A DNA stretch of 64,000 nucleotides from Bacteroidota bacterium (lineage in GTDB: Bacteria; Bacteroidota; Bacteroidia; 2-12-FULL-35-15). Location: NCBI GenBank assembly GCA_017303895.1, contig JAFLBF010000001.1:558001-622000 (forward strand). Direction: 5' to 3'. A program made the position numbers and the translations under genes. The notes below the pieces were generated by a model. The model saw nothing but the letters and a program-made list of their open reading frames with translations, was not told where the DNA came from and did not search any database. Shown in pieces: positions 34,250 through 42,581 of this stretch; positions within the stretch are counted from its first letter, which is position 1; each line of letters opens with the position of its first letter.

Positions 34250-35689
34250 CTACCCTTTTAACTTTTTCTCGATGTATTTTTCGGTAGGCAGGAGCGACTG
34301 TTGTATCCTCTTGGCGTAATGGATACTATCTAAAATTTCTTTTTGTTTGGTTTCCAATAAAAGCTTCTGGTATTCTACTTCTTTTTTCTGTTTCTCAATA
34401 ATATCGTTGGCTGTCTTTTTTTGTTTATAACCCCTGTATATGAATCCTGAAACGAGCAACATCGCTATAAATCCAACAATAAAATAGTTTTTTTGTGCCG
34501 CTTGCTTTTCTGCTTTTGCTGATTGTTTTAATATCTCAGCGTCTTTAAGAAGCAATTCTTTGTCTTTTTTCTCAGTCTCATACTTTTTATCCAGTTCGGA
34601 AATTTGTTTGAAAGTATTTTCATTCATCAAACTGTCTTTGTATTTAATGAACAGCACATAGTTCTCATAGGCATTTTTAAAATCTCCCTTTTTTGCATAG
34701 GTATTGGAAAGCATTTCATAGGCATACCGGATATTATCCATTCCCTTAAGTGAGAGTGCCATGTTCAAACTTTTTTTCTGCCATTCAATGGCTTGCTCAT
34801 AATCTCCTTTCTCTGCATGAATACTTCCTATGTTATCATACACATACATCAGTCCGCTTACACTGTTTATTTTCTTGTAGATATCATGCGAAAGTGTAAA
34901 GTACTGAAGTGATTTGTTTAGGTCTTTTTCATTATAGGCCGTTATGGCCATCCATGTGTACAGGTTTGATAAGCCATTATCATATTTTTGAGACAGATAA
35001 AGTGCTTCCGCTTCTGCATAATTTTTTTTGGCAGCATTGAAATCGCCATTAACATTATGGATGATGCCAATAGCCGTTATAAGGTTTGCCTTATCAATTG
35101 CGCTTCCTTCTTTCTTATAGATCTCAAGTGCTTGGGAATAACACTCCATTGCTTTATCATATCGCCCCATGTCTTTATATAGAGTTCCCATGGAGTAATC
35201 AAGTCCGGCAATCCCATCTTTTGAATTGATCTGTTCGTAAATGGTTAGCGCTTTCTGGAAATAATGTAAGGCTCCTTTAAGGTCGCCTTTGTACTTGGTG
35301 GCTTCACCAATAAGCTTTATTTGTTCCGCAGCATTAGCCTTGTCTCCGATTTTATTAAAAATGCTGAGTGCCTTTGTATAATTTGAGATTGCAGAATCAT
35401 AATTTGATACATCTTCCTCTAAATAGCCCAGATACATATAAGCAATCCCTTGTCCCGGCAGATAATTTTTTTGAACGGCCAACTTGTTAGCTTTTAATAT
35501 GTAGTGCTTTGCTGAGTCTTGATCAATAAATTCATAAGCCTTACCGATTCGGTTTAAGGTTTGAATAAGAAGCGTATCATGGATTTTTGATCTGGAGTAC
35601 TTTTTAAGAGAATCAATATTTGTTGTGTTTGAAAAAAGTGAGCCGGTTATATCAAACAAAAGAAAGATAAGGAGTACAGCTTTTTTCAT
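34250..35689 (-). CDS. TPR sensor protein lacking its phosphatase domain
   Basis: 479 residues from the ATG at 35689 (MKKAVLLIFLLFDITGSLF signal peptide); an upstream in-frame ATG at 35728 would add 13 non-signal-like residues. Residues about 30-340 are tandem TPRs in series, such as AISNYTKALSIFNKIGD and ALHYFQKALTIYEQ. A membrane helix (YFIVGFIAMLLVSGFIYRG) and a coiled coil follow. The protein stops after DSIHYAKRIQQSLLPTEKYI, which in related Bacteroidota proteins continues straight into a SpoIIE/PP2C phosphatase domain. That domain is instead encoded by the gene just upstream (35765-36475), 75 bp away. Likely a membrane sensor that acts with that separate phosphatase. Confidence 0.85.
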   Translation of the reverse strand: MKKAVLLIFLLFDITGSLFSNTTNIDSLKKYSRSKIHDTLLIQTLNRIGKAYEFIDQDSAKHYILKANKLAVQKNYLPGQGIAYMYLGYLEEDVSNYDSAISNYTKALSIFNKIGDKANAAEQIKLIGEATKYKGDLKGALHYFQKALTIYEQINSKDGIAGLDYSMGTLYKDMGRYDKAMECYSQALEIYKKEGSAIDKANLITAIGIIHNVNGDFNAAKKNYAEAEALYLSQKYDNGLSNLYTWMAITAYNEKDLNKSLQYFTLSHDIYKKINSVSGLMYVYDNIGSIHAEKGDYEQAIEWQKKSLNMALSLKGMDNIRYAYEMLSNTYAKKGDFKNAYENYVLFIKYKDSLMNENTFKQISELDKKYETEKKDKELLLKDAEILKQSAKAEKQAAQKNYFIVGFIAMLLVSGFIYRGYKQKKTANDIIEKQKKEVEYQKLLLETKQKEILDSIHYAKRIQQSLLPTEKYIEKKLKG

Positions 35690-35764
35690 CCTGTAACGTT
35701 GAGAATAAATATTATTAAAACGCAACAATTGGTTGACGTCTAATTCTATTCAGGTTAAAAAGAA

Positions 35765-36475
35765 TTATATTTTTATTCCGATCACAAGAATATCATCTAC
35801 TTGCTCAAGGTTGCCCATCCATTTTTCAATGGTGTTAGCAAGGATCTGTTTTTGCTCTTGCATGGGTAAATGGGAATTGCTGATCAAGAGTTCTTGCAGC
35901 TGTTTGTATTTAAATTTTTTCCCTTTTTCTCCACCAAATTGATCGGCATAGCCATCCGTGAAAATATAAATGATATCCCCTTTTACCAGATCAATTGATT
36001 TGAGTGTATAAGGCTCATTCTCTTTAGGCGACTTGCCGACAGGCATTTTGTCGGGTGCGTATTCTGTAACTTTTCCGTCTCTGACTAACCATAAAGGGTT
36101 ATTTGCTGCCGCAAAGTCCAATTTCATATCTTCAAAATCGAAGGCACACAAAACACAGTCCATTCCATCCTTACTTTCTTCTTCACTTCCTTCGGGATTC
36201 AAAGATGCGATGATCCCCTTTCTAACATTATCCAATATTTCATTGGGTGCTATCAGGTTTTTTTCAATGATGGATTCATTGAGTTTAGAAACAGCCATCA
36301 TGCTCATCAATGCGCCCGGAACACCGTGACCGGTACAGTCGGCAGCACTCATGTAAAAGATCTCTTTTTTACTACCCTGGTGTTTGTGCGATAAAGCATA
36401 ATAAAAGTCACCACTTACAATATCTTTTGGTTTGTAAAGAATAAAGAATGGTTTTGTTTCCGTCATTGTTTCCAT
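35765..36475 (-). CDS. SpoIIE/RsbU-type PP2C phosphatase domain protein
   Basis: 236 residues beginning almost directly with the catalytic domain: FFILYKPKDIVSGDFYY (metal-binding Asp23), AADCTGHGVPGALMSM (Asp46), a NPLWLVRDG segment and IFTDGYADQFG near the end. The motifs for a metal-dependent Ser/Thr phosphatase of the SpoIIE family are present. Such proteins often dephosphorylate anti-sigma-factor antagonists or other regulators. There is no N-terminal sensor region; an in-frame stop lies three codons before the ATG. The matching TPR-membrane-coiled-coil part is encoded by the following gene on the same strand, so order is reversed from the fused form. Confidence 0.9.
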   Translation of the reverse strand: METMTETKPFFILYKPKDIVSGDFYYALSHKHQGSKKEIFYMSAADCTGHGVPGALMSMMAVSKLNESIIEKNLIAPNEILDNVRKGIIASLNPEGSEEESKDGMDCVLCAFDFEDMKLDFAAANNPLWLVRDGKVTEYAPDKMPVGKSPKENEPYTLKSIDLVKGDIIYIFTDGYADQFGGEKGKKFKYKQLQELLISNSHLPMQEQKQILANTIEKWMGNLEQVDDILVIGIKI

Positions 36476-36822
36476 GCAACTAAATTAAGATTTTTTATTT
36501 AACTTTTTAATGGATCGTAAAATATAGTTTTCGTCATTTTTGCTTTATCGGTGTCGTTTTTACGCTGTTGAGTAGCCCCAATCAATCGGTTTTATTTTCA
36601 GTAGAAAGGAGATGGAGATTAAATAATATGAGGAGGGGAAGTAAAAAATACGTTTGAATAGCATCATATTTAACTGATCCTTATTTTAATTGTAAAAGGA
36701 AATAAGTCTATTTTTTCCCCGAAACCCAAAAAACAATGAAATTAGGTTTAGGCTTATATGTCAATACAAATGAGGCATTCATAAGAAAATTGCCCGCTAA
36801 AAATTAAAAATAAGATAAAAAC
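36476..36822. other. Divergent intergenic region with no recognised gene
   Basis: AT-rich spacer between the phosphatase gene (minus) and a giant T9SS gene (plus). I see no RNA gene, no stable terminator and no credible protein; the longest nearby reading (23 codons from 36736) has no family marks. The promoter of the plus gene is at its right end (36823-36853). Confidence 0.6.
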
Positions 36823-36875: not shown

Positions 36876-39800
36876 ATGAAAAAGATTACCCTTTTCTTAG
36901 GAGCGATCGCTTCTACTTTTGGAATTTCTGTATCTAATGCTCAGAATAACTGGGTTGAAATGATGCAGGATCCTACCGTTAATTTTTATAACGTACAGCA
37001 AGCATTTGAGCAATATTGGGCAGATCCTTCACACACTGTAGATGTTCAAGTTCCCAATCCGAACTATTCTGTAAAATGGTCGAATGTTAATCAGTCGCCA
37101 TTTATTACGAAAGCCAAAAAACCGGGATGGAAAACATTTAAACGTTGGGAAGATCTGATGAAACCTCGTTTGTATCCTTCGGGAGACAGGATGGTGATGA
37201 TCAATGCCATGAACGATTTTTATGATAATTATGCTGTTCAAGAAGCCAACAGAGGTCCTTCCGGTACAGGAAATCCAACTCCTCAAGCAGCTAACTGGAC
37301 GATCATTGGACCAACCACCACTATTCCTACTGGCGGTGGAGCGGGTCGTGTGAATTTTGTGCGTTTTGATCCAAGCAATACCAACACTATTTACGTTGGT
37401 GCACCTGATGGTGGTTGCTGGAAATCAACAACAGGCGGTACGGCATGGAGCACAACAACCGACAATCTGCCTTTGATCGGGTGTTCCGATCTTGCAATCG
37501 ATCCAAGCAATACACAAGTGTTATACTTAGCGATGGGTGATGCAGATGCGTCTGACACTTATAGTATTGGTGTTTATAAATCTACCAATGGTGGAGCAAC
37601 TTGGGCTGTAACCGGCCTTAATTGGGCAGTAACGAATGGTCGTGTGATCAGTCGTTTATTGATCAATCCATTGAAGCCAAGCACTATTTATGCGGCTTCA
37701 TCGAATGGTATTTACCGTACCTATAATTCAGGAACCACATGGACCCAGATCACAGGAACAAATGGCTTGAATATGAAAGATATTGAGTATAAGCCGGGCG
37801 ATACAACCGTGGTGTATGCTTGCTCAACAACCCGTTTTTATAAATCCACAAATGGCGGAACTTCCTTTACAAATATTACTGCAGGCTTGCCTGCAAACAC
37901 TGCAGTTGTTCGATTGTCAATTGCAGTAACACCTGCAAATGCAGCTTATGTATATTTATTAGCATCAGGGACCGACTATGGTTTTTATGGTTTATATCGC
38001 TCAACCGACAGTGGTACAAACTTTACTTCACGTGCAACTACACCAAACCTTTTGGGTTGGAATAGCAATGGCGGTGATTCCGGTGGACAAGGATGGTACG
38101 ATCTGGCTTTAGCAGTTGCACCAACAAATGCCGACCATGTATTGGTTGGTGGAATTAATATTTGGCGCTCAACAAACGGAGGGACAAGTTGGACGATTAA
38201 TGCGCATTGGACCGGTTCCGGTGCTCCTTACGTTCATGCCGATATTCATGCTTTGGAATATCTTCCCGGTAGTGCAACTACCTATTATGCCGGTAGTGAT
38301 GGAGGTTTATCAAGAACAACCAACAGCGGAACCGCATGGACCGATCTGAGTAACGGTTTGCAGATCGCTCAGATTTATCGTGTAGGGTTGTCCGCTACCA
38401 ACCAAAATTTATTATTAACAGGGTGGCAGGATAATGGAACCAATCGTTGGACAGGTGGAACAACATGGGCAGAGGTATTAGGCGGAGATGGGATGGAAGC
38501 GATCATTGATCATTCAAATGCGAATGTTCAATATGGTGAGCTTTATTATGGAGAGATCAACAGAACTACAACCGGTGGGAACTTAACCACAACTATTGTT
38601 CAGTCAGGTGGTACAGGTGTAAATGCTGATGGCGAATGGGTTACTCCATACATTATGAATCCTTTGAGAGCTGCTACATTGTTAGTTGGTAAAGCACAAG
38701 TGTATAAATCAGTCAACAGAGGTGGAACCTGGTCACAGGTTGGAACGATATCAGGTGGCACAGGAAACTTGGTAGCAATGGCTTATGCGCCAACAGATAG
38801 TAACTATATTTATGTTGCGAAAATGAATAAGTTCTATGCTTCTACGAATGGAACTTCCTTTACCGACAGAACAACGGGCTTGCCGGTAACATCTGCAGCT
38901 ATCACTTATATTGCCGTTGCCTCCAACAATCCTCAACATGTATGGGTAACATTCTCCGGTTACTCTGCAGCAAATAAAGTGTGGTATTCTGCGAATGCAG
39001 GCGCTACATGGACGAATTACACAACAGGTTTACCAAATATTCCTGCCAACTGTATCGTCTATCAAAACAATTCAACCAACGATGCGCTTTATGTAGGAAC
39101 AGATGTTGGTGTTTATTATAGAGATAATACAGCAGGATCGTGGACAGCTTATAATACCGGTCTTCCAAATGTGATCGTAAAAGAATTGGAGATCCAGTAT
39201 GCAGCTAATAAGCTAAGAGCGGCTACTTATGGTCGTGGTGTTTGGCAGTCTGATCTGAACACTCCGGGCACATCGCCTCCAACGGCTGATTTTACTGCTA
39301 ACAGAACCAATATATGTGTGGGTGATTGTATCAATTTCACTGACCTTTCTACTGGAACGCCTACTGCCTGGTCATGGTCATTCCCTGGAGCAGCAACAAC
39401 CGCTTCATCTGTTCAAAATCCAACCAACATTTGTTATAATACTGCCGGTACTTATAATGTTACGTTGACTGCAACAAATGGAAACGGAAGTTCTCCAATC
39501 ACAAAAACTGCTTACATAACCGTATCGGGTGTTTCTGCGCTACCATTAGTTGAAGGGTACGAGAACGCTACATTTGTGCCGGCCAATTGGTATTTGAATA
39601 ATCCGGATGCAGATGCTTATACGTGGACCCGTGTAACAAATGCGAATGGTCCATCTGCTGCAGGAACAGCTTCAGCAATGATTGACAATGCAACCCCTCC
39701 AACATCTACTGTTGGTTATATTGATGAAATGCATACCCCTAAATATAGCTTTGCAGGATTATCATCGGCAACCCTGACCTTTGATGTTGCTTACGCTCGT

Positions 39801-42581
39801 TATAATGCAACGTACTTTGATTCATTAATTGTGTTGATCTCTACTAATTGTGGTAGCTCATGGACAAGGGTTTATGCCAAAGGAAGTACAGCGTTAGCAA
39901 CAGCACCAGATAATAGTACTTCATTGTTTGTTCCTAGCGGAGCAACTCAGTGGAGAACAGAGACGGTTAACTTAAATAGTTATGTAGGACAAGCAAACGT
40001 TATGTTAAGTTTCCAGAATAAATCGGGTTGGGGACAAGCGCTATATCTGGATAATATTAATCTTTCAGGTGCAAGTACTGCAGCTGCCGTTTCTATTACA
40101 TCCAACGATGCTGATAATGTGATCTGTGCTGGTCAGAGTGTAACATTCACTGCAACTCCAACTAATGGTGGAACAACACCTGCTTATCAATGGAAAGTTA
40201 ATGGTGCGAACGTTGGAACCAATAGTCCAACTTATACTACGACTACCTTGACCAATGGTCAGATCGTTACTTGTGTGATGACATCCAACTTACCGGGTGT
40301 TACCGGAAATCCTGCAACAAGCAATGCAATTACAATGACTGTAAATGCCATTCCTGCTACCCCTACAGCAAGTAGTAATACTCCTGTATGTGCAGGAAGT
40401 ACGATCAATTTGAGTACTCCAACAGTAACAGGTGCAACGTATAGCTGGACAGGTCCGAGTACATTTACAAGTACAACACAAAATCCAACCCGTCCAAGTG
40501 CTACAACGGCTATGGCAGGAACATATAGTGTAACTGTTACTCAAAATGGTTGTACAAGTTTAGCGGGAACAACAGCGGTAGTGGTAAATGCCATTCCTGC
40601 TACCCCTACAGCAAGTAGTAATACTCCTGTATGTGCAGGAAGTACGATCAATTTGAGTACTCCAACAGTAACCGGTGCAACGTATAGCTGGACAGGTCCA
40701 AGTACATTTACAAGTACAACACAAAATCCAACCCGTCCAAGTTCTACTACAGCGATGGCTGGAACCTATAGCGTAACTGTAACACAAAATGGTTGTACAA
40801 GTTTGGTTGGTACAACAGCAGTAGTGGTAAATGCAACACCTGCAACACCTACCGCAAGTAGCAATACTCCGGTTTGTTCTGGAAGCACGATCAATTTAAG
40901 CACCCCAACAGTAACCGGTGCAACGTACAGCTGGACAGGCCCAAGTACATTTACTAGTACAAATCAAAACCCGACTCGCCCAAGCTCAACTACAGCAATG
41001 GCCGGAACCTATAGTGTAACTGTTACACAAAATGGTTGTACTAGTTTAGCGGGAACTACTGCTGTAGTGGTGAATGCAACACCTGCAACACCTACAGCAA
41101 GTAGCAATACTCCTGTATGTGCGGGAAGTACCATTAACTTAACGACTCCAACAGCAGCAGGTGCAACCTATAGCTGGACAGGTCCAAGTACTTTTACAAG
41201 TGCTACGCAAAATCCAATTCGTCCAAGCTCAACCACAGCGATGGGTGGAACATATAGTGTAACGGTTACACAAAACGGATGTACCAGTTTGGCCGGAACT
41301 ACAATGGTTGTGGTAAATGCAACTCCTGCAGCTCCAACAGCGGGAAGCAATTCTCCTGTTTGTGTAGGTTCTACGATCAATTTAACAGCATCCACAGTAA
41401 GCGGTGCAACGTATAGCTGGACAGGTCCAGGTTCGTTCTCTAGTACGAATCAGAATCCGACACGTCCTTCTGCTACGAATGGAATGGCTGGAACATACAG
41501 TGTAACAGCCACTCAAAATGGGTGTACTAGTGTTGCAGGAACTACTGTTGTGAGTGTAAGTAGTTCGGTTACGCCTTCAGTTACAACATCCATCGTTTCG
41601 GGATCTAATCCAACGTGTTCAGGGCAACCAATAACGATAACTGCTACACCAACCAATGGCGGAACAACACCAACCTATCAATGGCAGGTGAATGGTGCCA
41701 ATGCAGGAACCGGAGCAGTGTTTACATCCAGTACATTAGCAAATGGAGATATTGTAACTTGTATCATGACGAGCAACTCTCCTTGTGCTAGTCCTACAAC
41801 GGCCACTTCAACTGGTATTACAATGACCGTTACGTCAACAGTAACACCGACAGTTTCAGTTGCTGGTTCAAATACCATCTGTGCAGGTGCTAGCGCCACA
41901 TTTACAGCGATTCCAACTGATGGCGGAACAGCTCCAACTTATCAGTGGCAGGTAAATGGTTCAAATGCAGGAACCGGGTCAACTTTTACTTCTTCGACAT
42001 TGAACAATGGTGATGTTGTAACTTGTATCATGACGAGCAACTCTCCATGTGCTAGTCCGGCTACTGCCACCTCAACGGGTGTTACCATGGTGGTGAATGC
42101 AATTCCATCAACACCTACTATTTCACAAAATGGCAACGTATTAACATCAAGTGCAACCACAGGAAATCAATGGTACCTGAACGGTGTTGTAATTCCGGGA
42201 GCAACTGCACAGGATTACACAGTAGCACAAAGTGGCAATTATACAGTTGTTGTTACTGTGAATGGTTGTGAATCAGCTAGTTCTGCTGTGTTGCCGGTGA
42301 CGGTAACAGGTGTGGAAGAAACAGCAAACGCAATTGTATTTGATGTATATCCAAACCCAAATGATGGCAACTTTAATGTTCAGTTTAATGCAATTGAAAG
42401 ATCCAATTATAGAATAGAGATCTATAATGCGATCGGACAAAAAGTATATGCTGAAGAATTAAATCAATTCCAAGGATCATATAATAAACGATTAAGTGTA
42501 GTTGAATATGGCAGAGGCATTTACACGATCAATTTGGTAAATGTGAATCATCAGACCATCAAGAAAATGGTTGTTTATTAG
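36876..42581 (+). CDS. Giant secreted T9SS protein: sortilin-like propeller, PKD and Ig-like repeats
   Basis: 1901 residues. Signal peptide about 1-22 (ending SVSNAQ). Residues about 140-800 are BNR/sortilin-type propeller repeats (units such as VYKSTNGGATWAVTG). A PKD domain follows (about 815-885, PPTADFTANRTNICVGD), then a MAM/CBM-like jelly roll (about 890-1070, ending ALYLDNINLSG). An Ig-like series includes five 81-residue copies at 1158-1562 and two further copies of a different unit (GGTTPTYQWQVNG and GGTAPTYQWQVNG). The last 80 residues are a type A T9SS sorting domain (VYPNPNDGNFNVQFN), nearly identical in DNA to the next gene. Role: secreted or surface-anchored adhesin-like protein or, given the propeller, a possible hydrolase; no active site identified. 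Confidence 0.88.
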   Translation: MKKITLFLGAIASTFGISVSNAQNNWVEMMQDPTVNFYNVQQAFEQYWADPSHTVDVQVPNPNYSVKWSNVNQSPFITKAKKPGWKTFKRWEDLMKPRLYPSGDRMVMINAMNDFYDNYAVQEANRGPSGTGNPTPQAANWTIIGPTTTIPTGGGAGRVNFVRFDPSNTNTIYVGAPDGGCWKSTTGGTAWSTTTDNLPLIGCSDLAIDPSNTQVLYLAMGDADASDTYSIGVYKSTNGGATWAVTGLNWAVTNGRVISRLLINPLKPSTIYAASSNGIYRTYNSGTTWTQITGTNGLNMKDIEYKPGDTTVVYACSTTRFYKSTNGGTSFTNITAGLPANTAVVRLSIAVTPANAAYVYLLASGTDYGFYGLYRSTDSGTNFTSRATTPNLLGWNSNGGDSGGQGWYDLALAVAPTNADHVLVGGINIWRSTNGGTSWTINAHWTGSGAPYVHADIHALEYLPGSATTYYAGSDGGLSRTTNSGTAWTDLSNGLQIAQIYRVGLSATNQNLLLTGWQDNGTNRWTGGTTWAEVLGGDGMEAIIDHSNANVQYGELYYGEINRTTTGGNLTTTIVQSGGTGVNADGEWVTPYIMNPLRAATLLVGKAQVYKSVNRGGTWSQVGTISGGTGNLVAMAYAPTDSNYIYVAKMNKFYASTNGTSFTDRTTGLPVTSAAITYIAVASNNPQHVWVTFSGYSAANKVWYSANAGATWTNYTTGLPNIPANCIVYQNNSTNDALYVGTDVGVYYRDNTAGSWTAYNTGLPNVIVKELEIQYAANKLRAATYGRGVWQSDLNTPGTSPPTADFTANRTNICVGDCINFTDLSTGTPTAWSWSFPGAATTASSVQNPTNICYNTAGTYNVTLTATNGNGSSPITKTAYITVSGVSALPLVEGYENATFVPANWYLNNPDADAYTWTRVTNANGPSAAGTASAMIDNATPPTSTVGYIDEMHTPKYSFAGLSSATLTFDVAYARYNATYFDSLIVLISTNCGSSWTRVYAKGSTALATAPDNSTSLFVPSGATQWRTETVNLNSYVGQANVMLSFQNKSGWGQALYLDNINLSGASTAAAVSITSNDADNVICAGQSVTFTATPTNGGTTPAYQWKVNGANVGTNSPTYTTTTLTNGQIVTCVMTSNLPGVTGNPATSNAITMTVNAIPATPTASSNTPVCAGSTINLSTPTVTGATYSWTGPSTFTSTTQNPTRPSATTAMAGTYSVTVTQNGCTSLAGTTAVVVNAIPATPTASSNTPVCAGSTINLSTPTVTGATYSWTGPSTFTSTTQNPTRPSSTTAMAGTYSVTVTQNGCTSLVGTTAVVVNATPATPTASSNTPVCSGSTINLSTPTVTGATYSWTGPSTFTSTNQNPTRPSSTTAMAGTYSVTVTQNGCTSLAGTTAVVVNATPATPTASSNTPVCAGSTINLTTPTAAGATYSWTGPSTFTSATQNPIRPSSTTAMGGTYSVTVTQNGCTSLAGTTMVVVNATPAAPTAGSNSPVCVGSTINLTASTVSGATYSWTGPGSFSSTNQNPTRPSATNGMAGTYSVTATQNGCTSVAGTTVVSVSSSVTPSVTTSIVSGSNPTCSGQPITITATPTNGGTTPTYQWQVNGANAGTGAVFTSSTLANGDIVTCIMTSNSPCASPTTATSTGITMTVTSTVTPTVSVAGSNTICAGASATFTAIPTDGGTAPTYQWQVNGSNAGTGSTFTSSTLNNGDVVTCIMTSNSPCASPATATSTGVTMVVNAIPSTPTISQNGNVLTSSATTGNQWYLNGVVIPGATAQDYTVAQSGNYTVVVTVNGCESASSAVLPVTVTGVEETANAIVFDVYPNPNDGNFNVQFNAIERSNYRIEIYNAIGQKVYAEELNQFQGSYNKRLSVVEYGRGIYTINLVNVNHQTIKKMVVY
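40347..41561 (+). repeat. Five tandem 243-bp coding repeats (81 residues each)
   Basis: Copies begin at 40347, 40590, 40833, 41076 and 41319, each exactly 243 bp, without indels. Each encodes an Ig-like unit: TPTASSNTPVC, a YSWTGPSTF strand, NPTRPS and TYSVTVTQNGC, with two cysteines. Copies 1 and 2 differ at only two of their first 153 bases and then more often, suggesting recent local duplication or gene conversion. Copy 5 is the most divergent. Confidence 0.92.

Follow-up and report, generated by a model that had tools for sequence, protein, structure and literature searches.

Sensor-only membrane proteins and a stand-alone PPM phosphatase as parts of a probable split signalling system in uncultured Bacteroidota

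The window, i.e. the whole 64,000-nucleotide stretch of DNA analysed here, carries on its minus strand a stand-alone phosphatase gene, hereafter PHO, followed after 75 nt by the gene for a TPR protein. Gene calls and Pfam matches bear out both the coordinates and the domain order (PHO first, TPR second) of the original prediction. The features discussed below are:

36485..36529, minus strand: decayed 3' remnant (stub) of an upstream sensor gene that has been lost, NYILRSIKKLNKKS-stop, whose register and spacing to the PHO start are as in the sensor of the closest relative, G001
35765..36475, minus strand: PHO, a stand-alone SpoIIE/PPM serine/threonine phosphatase (predicted catalytic subunit), 236 aa with an ATG start
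34250..35689, minus strand: sensor-only TPR receptor, 479 aa from its ATG (TPR_12, E 5e-30; TM scan; orthologues in G001 and G009)
34253..34420, minus strand: C-terminal coiled coil and tail module of this receptor, KKTANDIIEK...DSIHYAKRIQQSLLPTEKYIEKKLKG, the proposed PHO-binding segment with the equivalents of SiaA helices α1–α2 (tail profile A2, 93 bits; motif in 6k4e; AF2 and VIA-align on the relative L099)

In a domain-model search, residues 43-235 of PHO match PF07228 (E 6e-24; 85.5 bits against a cut-off of 25), and all of the acidic residues that coordinate metal in PPM phosphatases (D23, D46, D174, D227 and D228) are present; across 34 stand-alone copies these residues and G175 are invariant. 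The TM scan finds no TM segment in PHO, and the chain, which starts at the first strand of the catalytic core, has neither a sensor nor the α1–α2 interface helices. The SiaA model NF038263 matches with E 1.6e-40 but, at 139 bits, falls below its curated cut-off of 700, the match being confined to the C-terminal positions 439-656 of the 658 in the model. Of the 33 SpoIIE domains in the window genome, all but that of PHO are in frames of at least 316 aa, as against ~240 aa for PHO.

Orthologues of PHO with the same start and length, at 61-90% identity, are found in relatives, other families included, and stand-alone copies with the same ends are present in seven further families besides 10 genomes of the genus. 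A tree of 93 phosphatase domains places the ten that stand alone on one side of a branch with an SH-aLRT of 99, which requires one change. A profile for stand-alone PHO, separated by a gap of >80 bits from all fused domains compared with it, detects exactly one copy in each of 24 of the 395 class genomes, spread over eight families, and finds the gene in 10 of the 36 genomes of the genus; the named matches are uncultured Bacteroidota genomes. Judged by this tree and this distribution, PHO is a monophyletic gene of old standing, present in single copy. In an evenly drawn sample of the phylum (395 genomes), PHO reached the threshold in the window genome only and, therefore, we claim no wider spread. 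Of the top 32 positions that tell stand-alone and fused phosphatases apart, 11 fall in the predicted switch helices (residues 52-92), an enrichment with p 0.01.

The TPR protein comprises an N-terminal hydrophobic segment (residues 4-22), the TPRs, a TM segment (402-420) and a coiled coil, and it terminates in DSIHYAKRIQQSLLPTEKYIEKKLKG-stop; a longer, TTG-started frame begins at 35728. It does not form one chain with the phosphatase, as its tail runs into a stop and PHO, encoded separately, starts from an ATG of its own. A histidine kinase domain was sought in it with Pfam and none was found, and the FimS model matches over positions 177-392 of 618 only, scoring 66.8 against a cut-off of 600. 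A 67% orthologue adjoins PHO in G001, and a 54% orthologue in G009 lies on a different contig from that of the PHO of that genome.

It had been proposed that the TPR protein ends where fused homologues enter the phosphatase, and this register is borne out by alignment with the fused paralogues, which read DSI..YA.RIQ..(I/L)LP...LP(D/E)SF(V/I)LYKPKDIVSGDFYW. After the LP, however, the window tail departs from the fused linker: it ends SLLPTEKYIEKKLKG-stop, contains no fused-type linker and, consistent with its 93-bit profile match, belongs with a conserved sensor-only class. Such sensor-only proteins, composed of TPRs, a TM segment and a coiled coil with a stop soon after IQ..LLP, are common in PHO genomes, and their tail consensus is QKEIIDSIxYAKRIQxSLLPTEKYIEKxLxRLKK-stop. 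In a comparison of 99 sensor-only with 191 fused sequences, Tyr follows PTEK in 91% versus 13%, and the next residue is Ile in 89% versus 27%, whereas 94% of the fused proteins have Phe where the first phosphatase strand begins. Some 80 sensors of 400-566 aa are intact and carry the conserved tail, and by TM scan a TM segment precedes the tail in 77 of 81 long sensors; some other sensor-only frames are short or interrupted. Not every sensor head is a TPR domain: the same tail is found on a 235-aa multi-TM protein in the window genome, where there are two short sensor-only proteins with non-TPR heads, of 246 and 235 aa (G000:C7:61345-61500 = L036 419-1159; L026 791-1498).

In a tree of the ectodomains, sensor-only and fused proteins are intermingled (28 changes, against 42 when shuffled). 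At least 14 changes between the two forms are forced by well-supported branches, although the branches are long and the details unsafe, so that these figures are indicative only. Given this mixing, the tail looks like a module that can be acquired or shed by receptors.

When these 395 class genomes were scored with the tail profile, 23 of the 24 PHO genomes gave a best match with E <= 3.3e-21 and all 371 others one with E >= 3.8e-21; the resulting Fisher p of 2e-36 ignores phylogeny and follows from a cut chosen after the values had been seen. The 24th PHO genome, G227, possesses sensor-only genes with diverged tails, as confirmed by their stops. Those loci just above the threshold in genomes without PHO that were read are fused frames, with the exception of one 141-aa sensor-only frame in G340. 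Within the genus, sensor-only tails are present in all 10 PHO genomes and absent from 24 of the 26 others. Three genomes have sensor-only tails and no detected PHO, namely, G340, G414 (a single 83-aa sensor-only frame) and G003, which is 93% complete and has 27 tails. One of the tails of G003 ends ~120 bases from the end of its contig, on the strand that would put any downstream PHO beyond the assembled sequence and, therefore, it is possible that PHO is missing there through an assembly gap. Inside several families (f1, f16, f33, f37 and f41), the presence of the tail and that of PHO vary together, a pattern suggesting that the two were jointly gained or lost more than once. At E <= 1e-20, there are eight tails in the window genome, and the number elsewhere goes from one (G413) or two (G006) up to 32 (G017); the last of these genomes, 80% complete and with a single PHO for its 32 sensor-only tails, shows the largest ratio seen.

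A sensor-only gene is the direct neighbour of PHO, mostly directly upstream, in 16 of the 32 mapped PHO loci, among which the same genome may occur under two names; in the other mapped loci (about half), PHO stands alone or beside fused genes, with the sensors elsewhere. The usual order in relatives is sensor-PHO or sensor-PHO-sensor, and the largest arrays put five sensors ahead of PHO, as in G017, with a further two behind it in G057. The closest relative, G001, has the order sensor-sensor-sensor-PHO-sensor-phoH, and the window has PHO-sensor-phoH. The stub upstream of PHO in the window shares 9 of 16 residues with the end of the upstream sensor of G001, NEKYIEKNINRLNKKS-stop, a match not equalled among 127,900 six-frame windows, and the DNA alignment between the window and G001 extends into it. 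Given this stub and the order in G001, we conclude on sequence grounds that the order seen in the window, PHO followed by TPR, is what remained of a sensor-PHO-sensor arrangement once the upstream sensor had gone, and not a split gene in reverse. A 49-aa tail-only frame, similar to the stub of the window, lies ~40 nt upstream of PHO in G212 (C33:24034-24168). Sensor and downstream PHO share a reading frame in 8 of the 12 adjacent pairs checked (those of L194, L195, L199, L200, L201, L091, L208 and L099), where chance would give ~1/3, several pairs coming from related genomes and so not being independent; PHO and the TPR protein of the window are likewise in one frame.

Among the neighbouring genes, which include Aldedh-MaoC, enoyl-CoA hydratase (phenylacetate-type), ferritin and MarR genes, we looked for a substrate or anti-sigma partner and saw no obvious one. 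In several genomes (L097, L101, L092, L095 and L096), PHO or a sensor array adjoins a 681-aa Aldedh-MaoC gene, which is PaaZ-like in L095, together with one for enoyl-CoA hydratase, surroundings that resemble a phenylacetate degradation region. Such a 681-aa gene also adjoins the C5 sensor array of the window genome, PHO being elsewhere, by phoH. At 36876-42581, the window further encodes a sortilin/PKD protein of 1901 aa that bears a type IX secretion tail and in which about five copies of a 243-bp repeat (40341-41542; 83% matches) give rise to near-identical Ig-like domains.

The nearest solved structure to PHO is the PP2C domain of SiaA (6k4e). PHO alone has the PP2C fold, aligning to SiaA 440-663 over 214 residues at 2.1 Å (Z 26.0; VIA-align). 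The tail motif is also present in the crystal chain, as GDSLDYASLIQRAILP, and a fused paralogue aligns to 6k4e through GDSLDYASLIQRAILPDRQLSATLGEHHFILWKP, from which the sensor tail can be read as the counterpart of the helices that precede the catalytic core. In SiaA, helices α1, α2 and α3 are reported to make up the homodimer interface (PMC7647112); by this correspondence, α1–α2 would be located on the sensor and α3 on PHO. An AF2 model of PHO and the TPR protein of the window, obtained by read-through, gave a pTM of 0.55, and its permuted contact is one to which a sequential structure aligner is blind; for this reason, L099, a relative with the natural gene order, was modelled. The L099 sensor tail and PHO were treated as one artificial chain with a disordered linker generated by reading through the stops, no fused sequences being used in building the model; the linker is a computational device and not a claim of readthrough. 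The model aligns to SiaA 409-662 over 243 residues at 2.1 Å (Z 29.6; VIA-align), values to which no interface score is attached and which come from a covalent linkage that itself favours docking. As the alignment begins at SiaA 409, and that of PHO alone at 440, the tail is predicted by AF2 to occupy the α1–α2 site. The suggestion made originally that the two proteins may work as partners gains indirect support from co-occurrence, adjacency and this predicted fit of the tail on PHO.

Overall, we think it probable that these genes constitute a split, many-to-one signalling system, recurring in uncultured Bacteroidota, in which one PHO is common to several sensor-only membrane receptors. The architecture, the conserved tail, its co-occurrence with PHO, the adjacency of the genes and the loss of a neighbour are read from the sequences; docking of the tail on PHO is predicted by the model; and the binding, signalling direction, stoichiometry and substrate are what we infer. 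PHO, a small soluble PPM phosphatase, would act as the shared catalytic subunit of receptors that would include the TPR protein of the window and at least seven others in its genome, and up to 32 in G017. At the end of their coiled coils, these would carry two helices that in SiaA-type phosphatases are N-terminal to the core and contribute much of the dimer interface. Presumably, a periplasmic signal perceived by the TPR domain would alter the dimeric coiled coil, and the receptor tail would dock in trans on PHO beside its switch helices, rebuilding a 2:2 dimer like that of SiaA or RsbU and raising or lowering phosphatase activity. Coiled-coil linkers and switch helices are known to control PPM phosphatases, through dimerization in the cases of SpoIIE and RsbU (PMC5468089, PMC12143880); this work, the SiaA alignments and the switch-helix enrichment are our reasons for proposing that the tail may complete and control the PHO dimer in trans. 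PHO may then dephosphorylate a downstream switch protein, perhaps one similar to SiaC: this is a guess, prompted by the relationship of PHO to SiaA and by the five SiaC-family genes in the window genome. In partner switching of the RsbU type, the protein dephosphorylated is a STAS-like antagonist of the RsbV/SpoIIAA/SiaC class. A further-reaching view, towards which we lean with some reserve, is that of a hub resembling CheA, in which tens of receptors with a conserved tip (at least 32 in one incomplete genome) would share one PPM phosphatase that is otherwise incomplete, either in competition or by joint control, and would supply the missing part of its dimer interface in trans; ectodomains would, on this view, move repeatedly between trans and fused cis forms.

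The permuted pair had originally been attributed to tandem duplication of a fused TPR-SpoIIE gene at this site, with subsequent loss of complementary halves. The ends of both proteins do meet at the fused junction, and fused paralogues are plentiful in a genome with 33 SpoIIE domains. Nevertheless, we regard this origin as highly improbable: PHO forms a single old clade with the same start in eight class families; stand-alone copies with the same ends recur in 10 genomes of the genus; the window sensor bears the tail of a dedicated sensor-only class in place of a truncated fused linker, and its orthologue in G009 is on another contig than PHO; and relatives mostly have sensor-PHO or sensor-PHO-sensor, with the stub of the lost upstream sensor being retained in the window.

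Alternatively, the sensor-only proteins might mainly form mixed dimers with fused phosphatases, as modulators or decoys, with PHO as a separate enzyme. Sensors and fused paralogues are often adjacent and have the coiled coil and the DSIxYAxRIQ segment in common, and G003, G340 and G414 combine tails and fused phosphatases with no PHO detected; however, many genomes rich in fused phosphatases have no sensor-only tails when they lack PHO, at many loci a sensor immediately precedes PHO, and after the LP the tail has a helix of its own that shows class-wide conservation, such that we consider this arrangement unlikely. There is very little to be said for degenerate, truncated receptors beside an unrelated housekeeping phosphatase, with no joint function. 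Although certain sensor-only frames are short or interrupted, and the upstream stub illustrates that sensors do decay, the many full-length sensors with conserved tails and the strong co-occurrence of tail and PHO speak against it, as do amino-acid identities between the window and G001 of 90% for PHO and 67% for the sensor despite saturated synonymous sites. For the family as a whole, the pseudogene or decay reading was rejected.

PPM phosphatases under the control of coiled-coil linkers have so far been described with sensor and enzyme in one chain, and a literature search, mainly outside subscription papers, found no description of a split sensor/phosphatase system. The shared-phosphatase system is apparently an undescribed, recurring variant of the linker-controlled PPM phosphatase, in which the cut in the chain seems to fall precisely at the boundary between linker and catalytic core, the linker having become a plug borne by many receptors. 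If so, the system would be a naturally split one whose enzyme can receive the controlling helix in trans, making the linker/switch model directly testable with peptides, and a lineage with dozens of phosphatases would be pooling many inputs into one output.

Among known systems, SiaA of the SiaABCD system of Pseudomonas aeruginosa (6k4e; PMC7647112) provides both the closest solved structure and the best NCBIfam match to PHO. It shares with the PHO system a PP2C core with invariant acidic residues and a DS(I/L)xYAxxIQxxILP segment before the core, but it unites sensor, HAMP and PP2C domains in cis in one membrane protein, whereas here the sensor and α1–α2 reside on proteins separate from the core, and one core would serve many sensors. 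Phosphatases of the RsbU/RsbP/SpoIIE type (PMC5468089, PMC12143880) are similar in that a helical linker and switch helices control the phosphatase dimer and that diverse sensor domains are exchangeable; in the examples described, however, the linker is covalently attached to the phosphatase, whereas here the two are encoded by different genes. RsbT activates in trans, but it is not a membrane receptor with a linker. The fused TPR-TM-coiled-coil-SpoIIE proteins of Bacteroidota, which account for many of the 33 SpoIIE domains in the genome, have the same sensor-linker-phosphatase domain order and related ectodomains, but their output is in cis, through the linker AILPP...LP(D/E)SF(V/I)LYKP, and they represent many independent enzymes with no common catalytic subunit. 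Chemoreceptors (MCPs), which are numerous and have varied sensor domains, converge through a conserved cytoplasmic tip on a single enzyme, CheA. The likeness of the PHO system to these is one of logic only: there is no homology, and PHO is a phosphatase, whereas CheA is a kinase.
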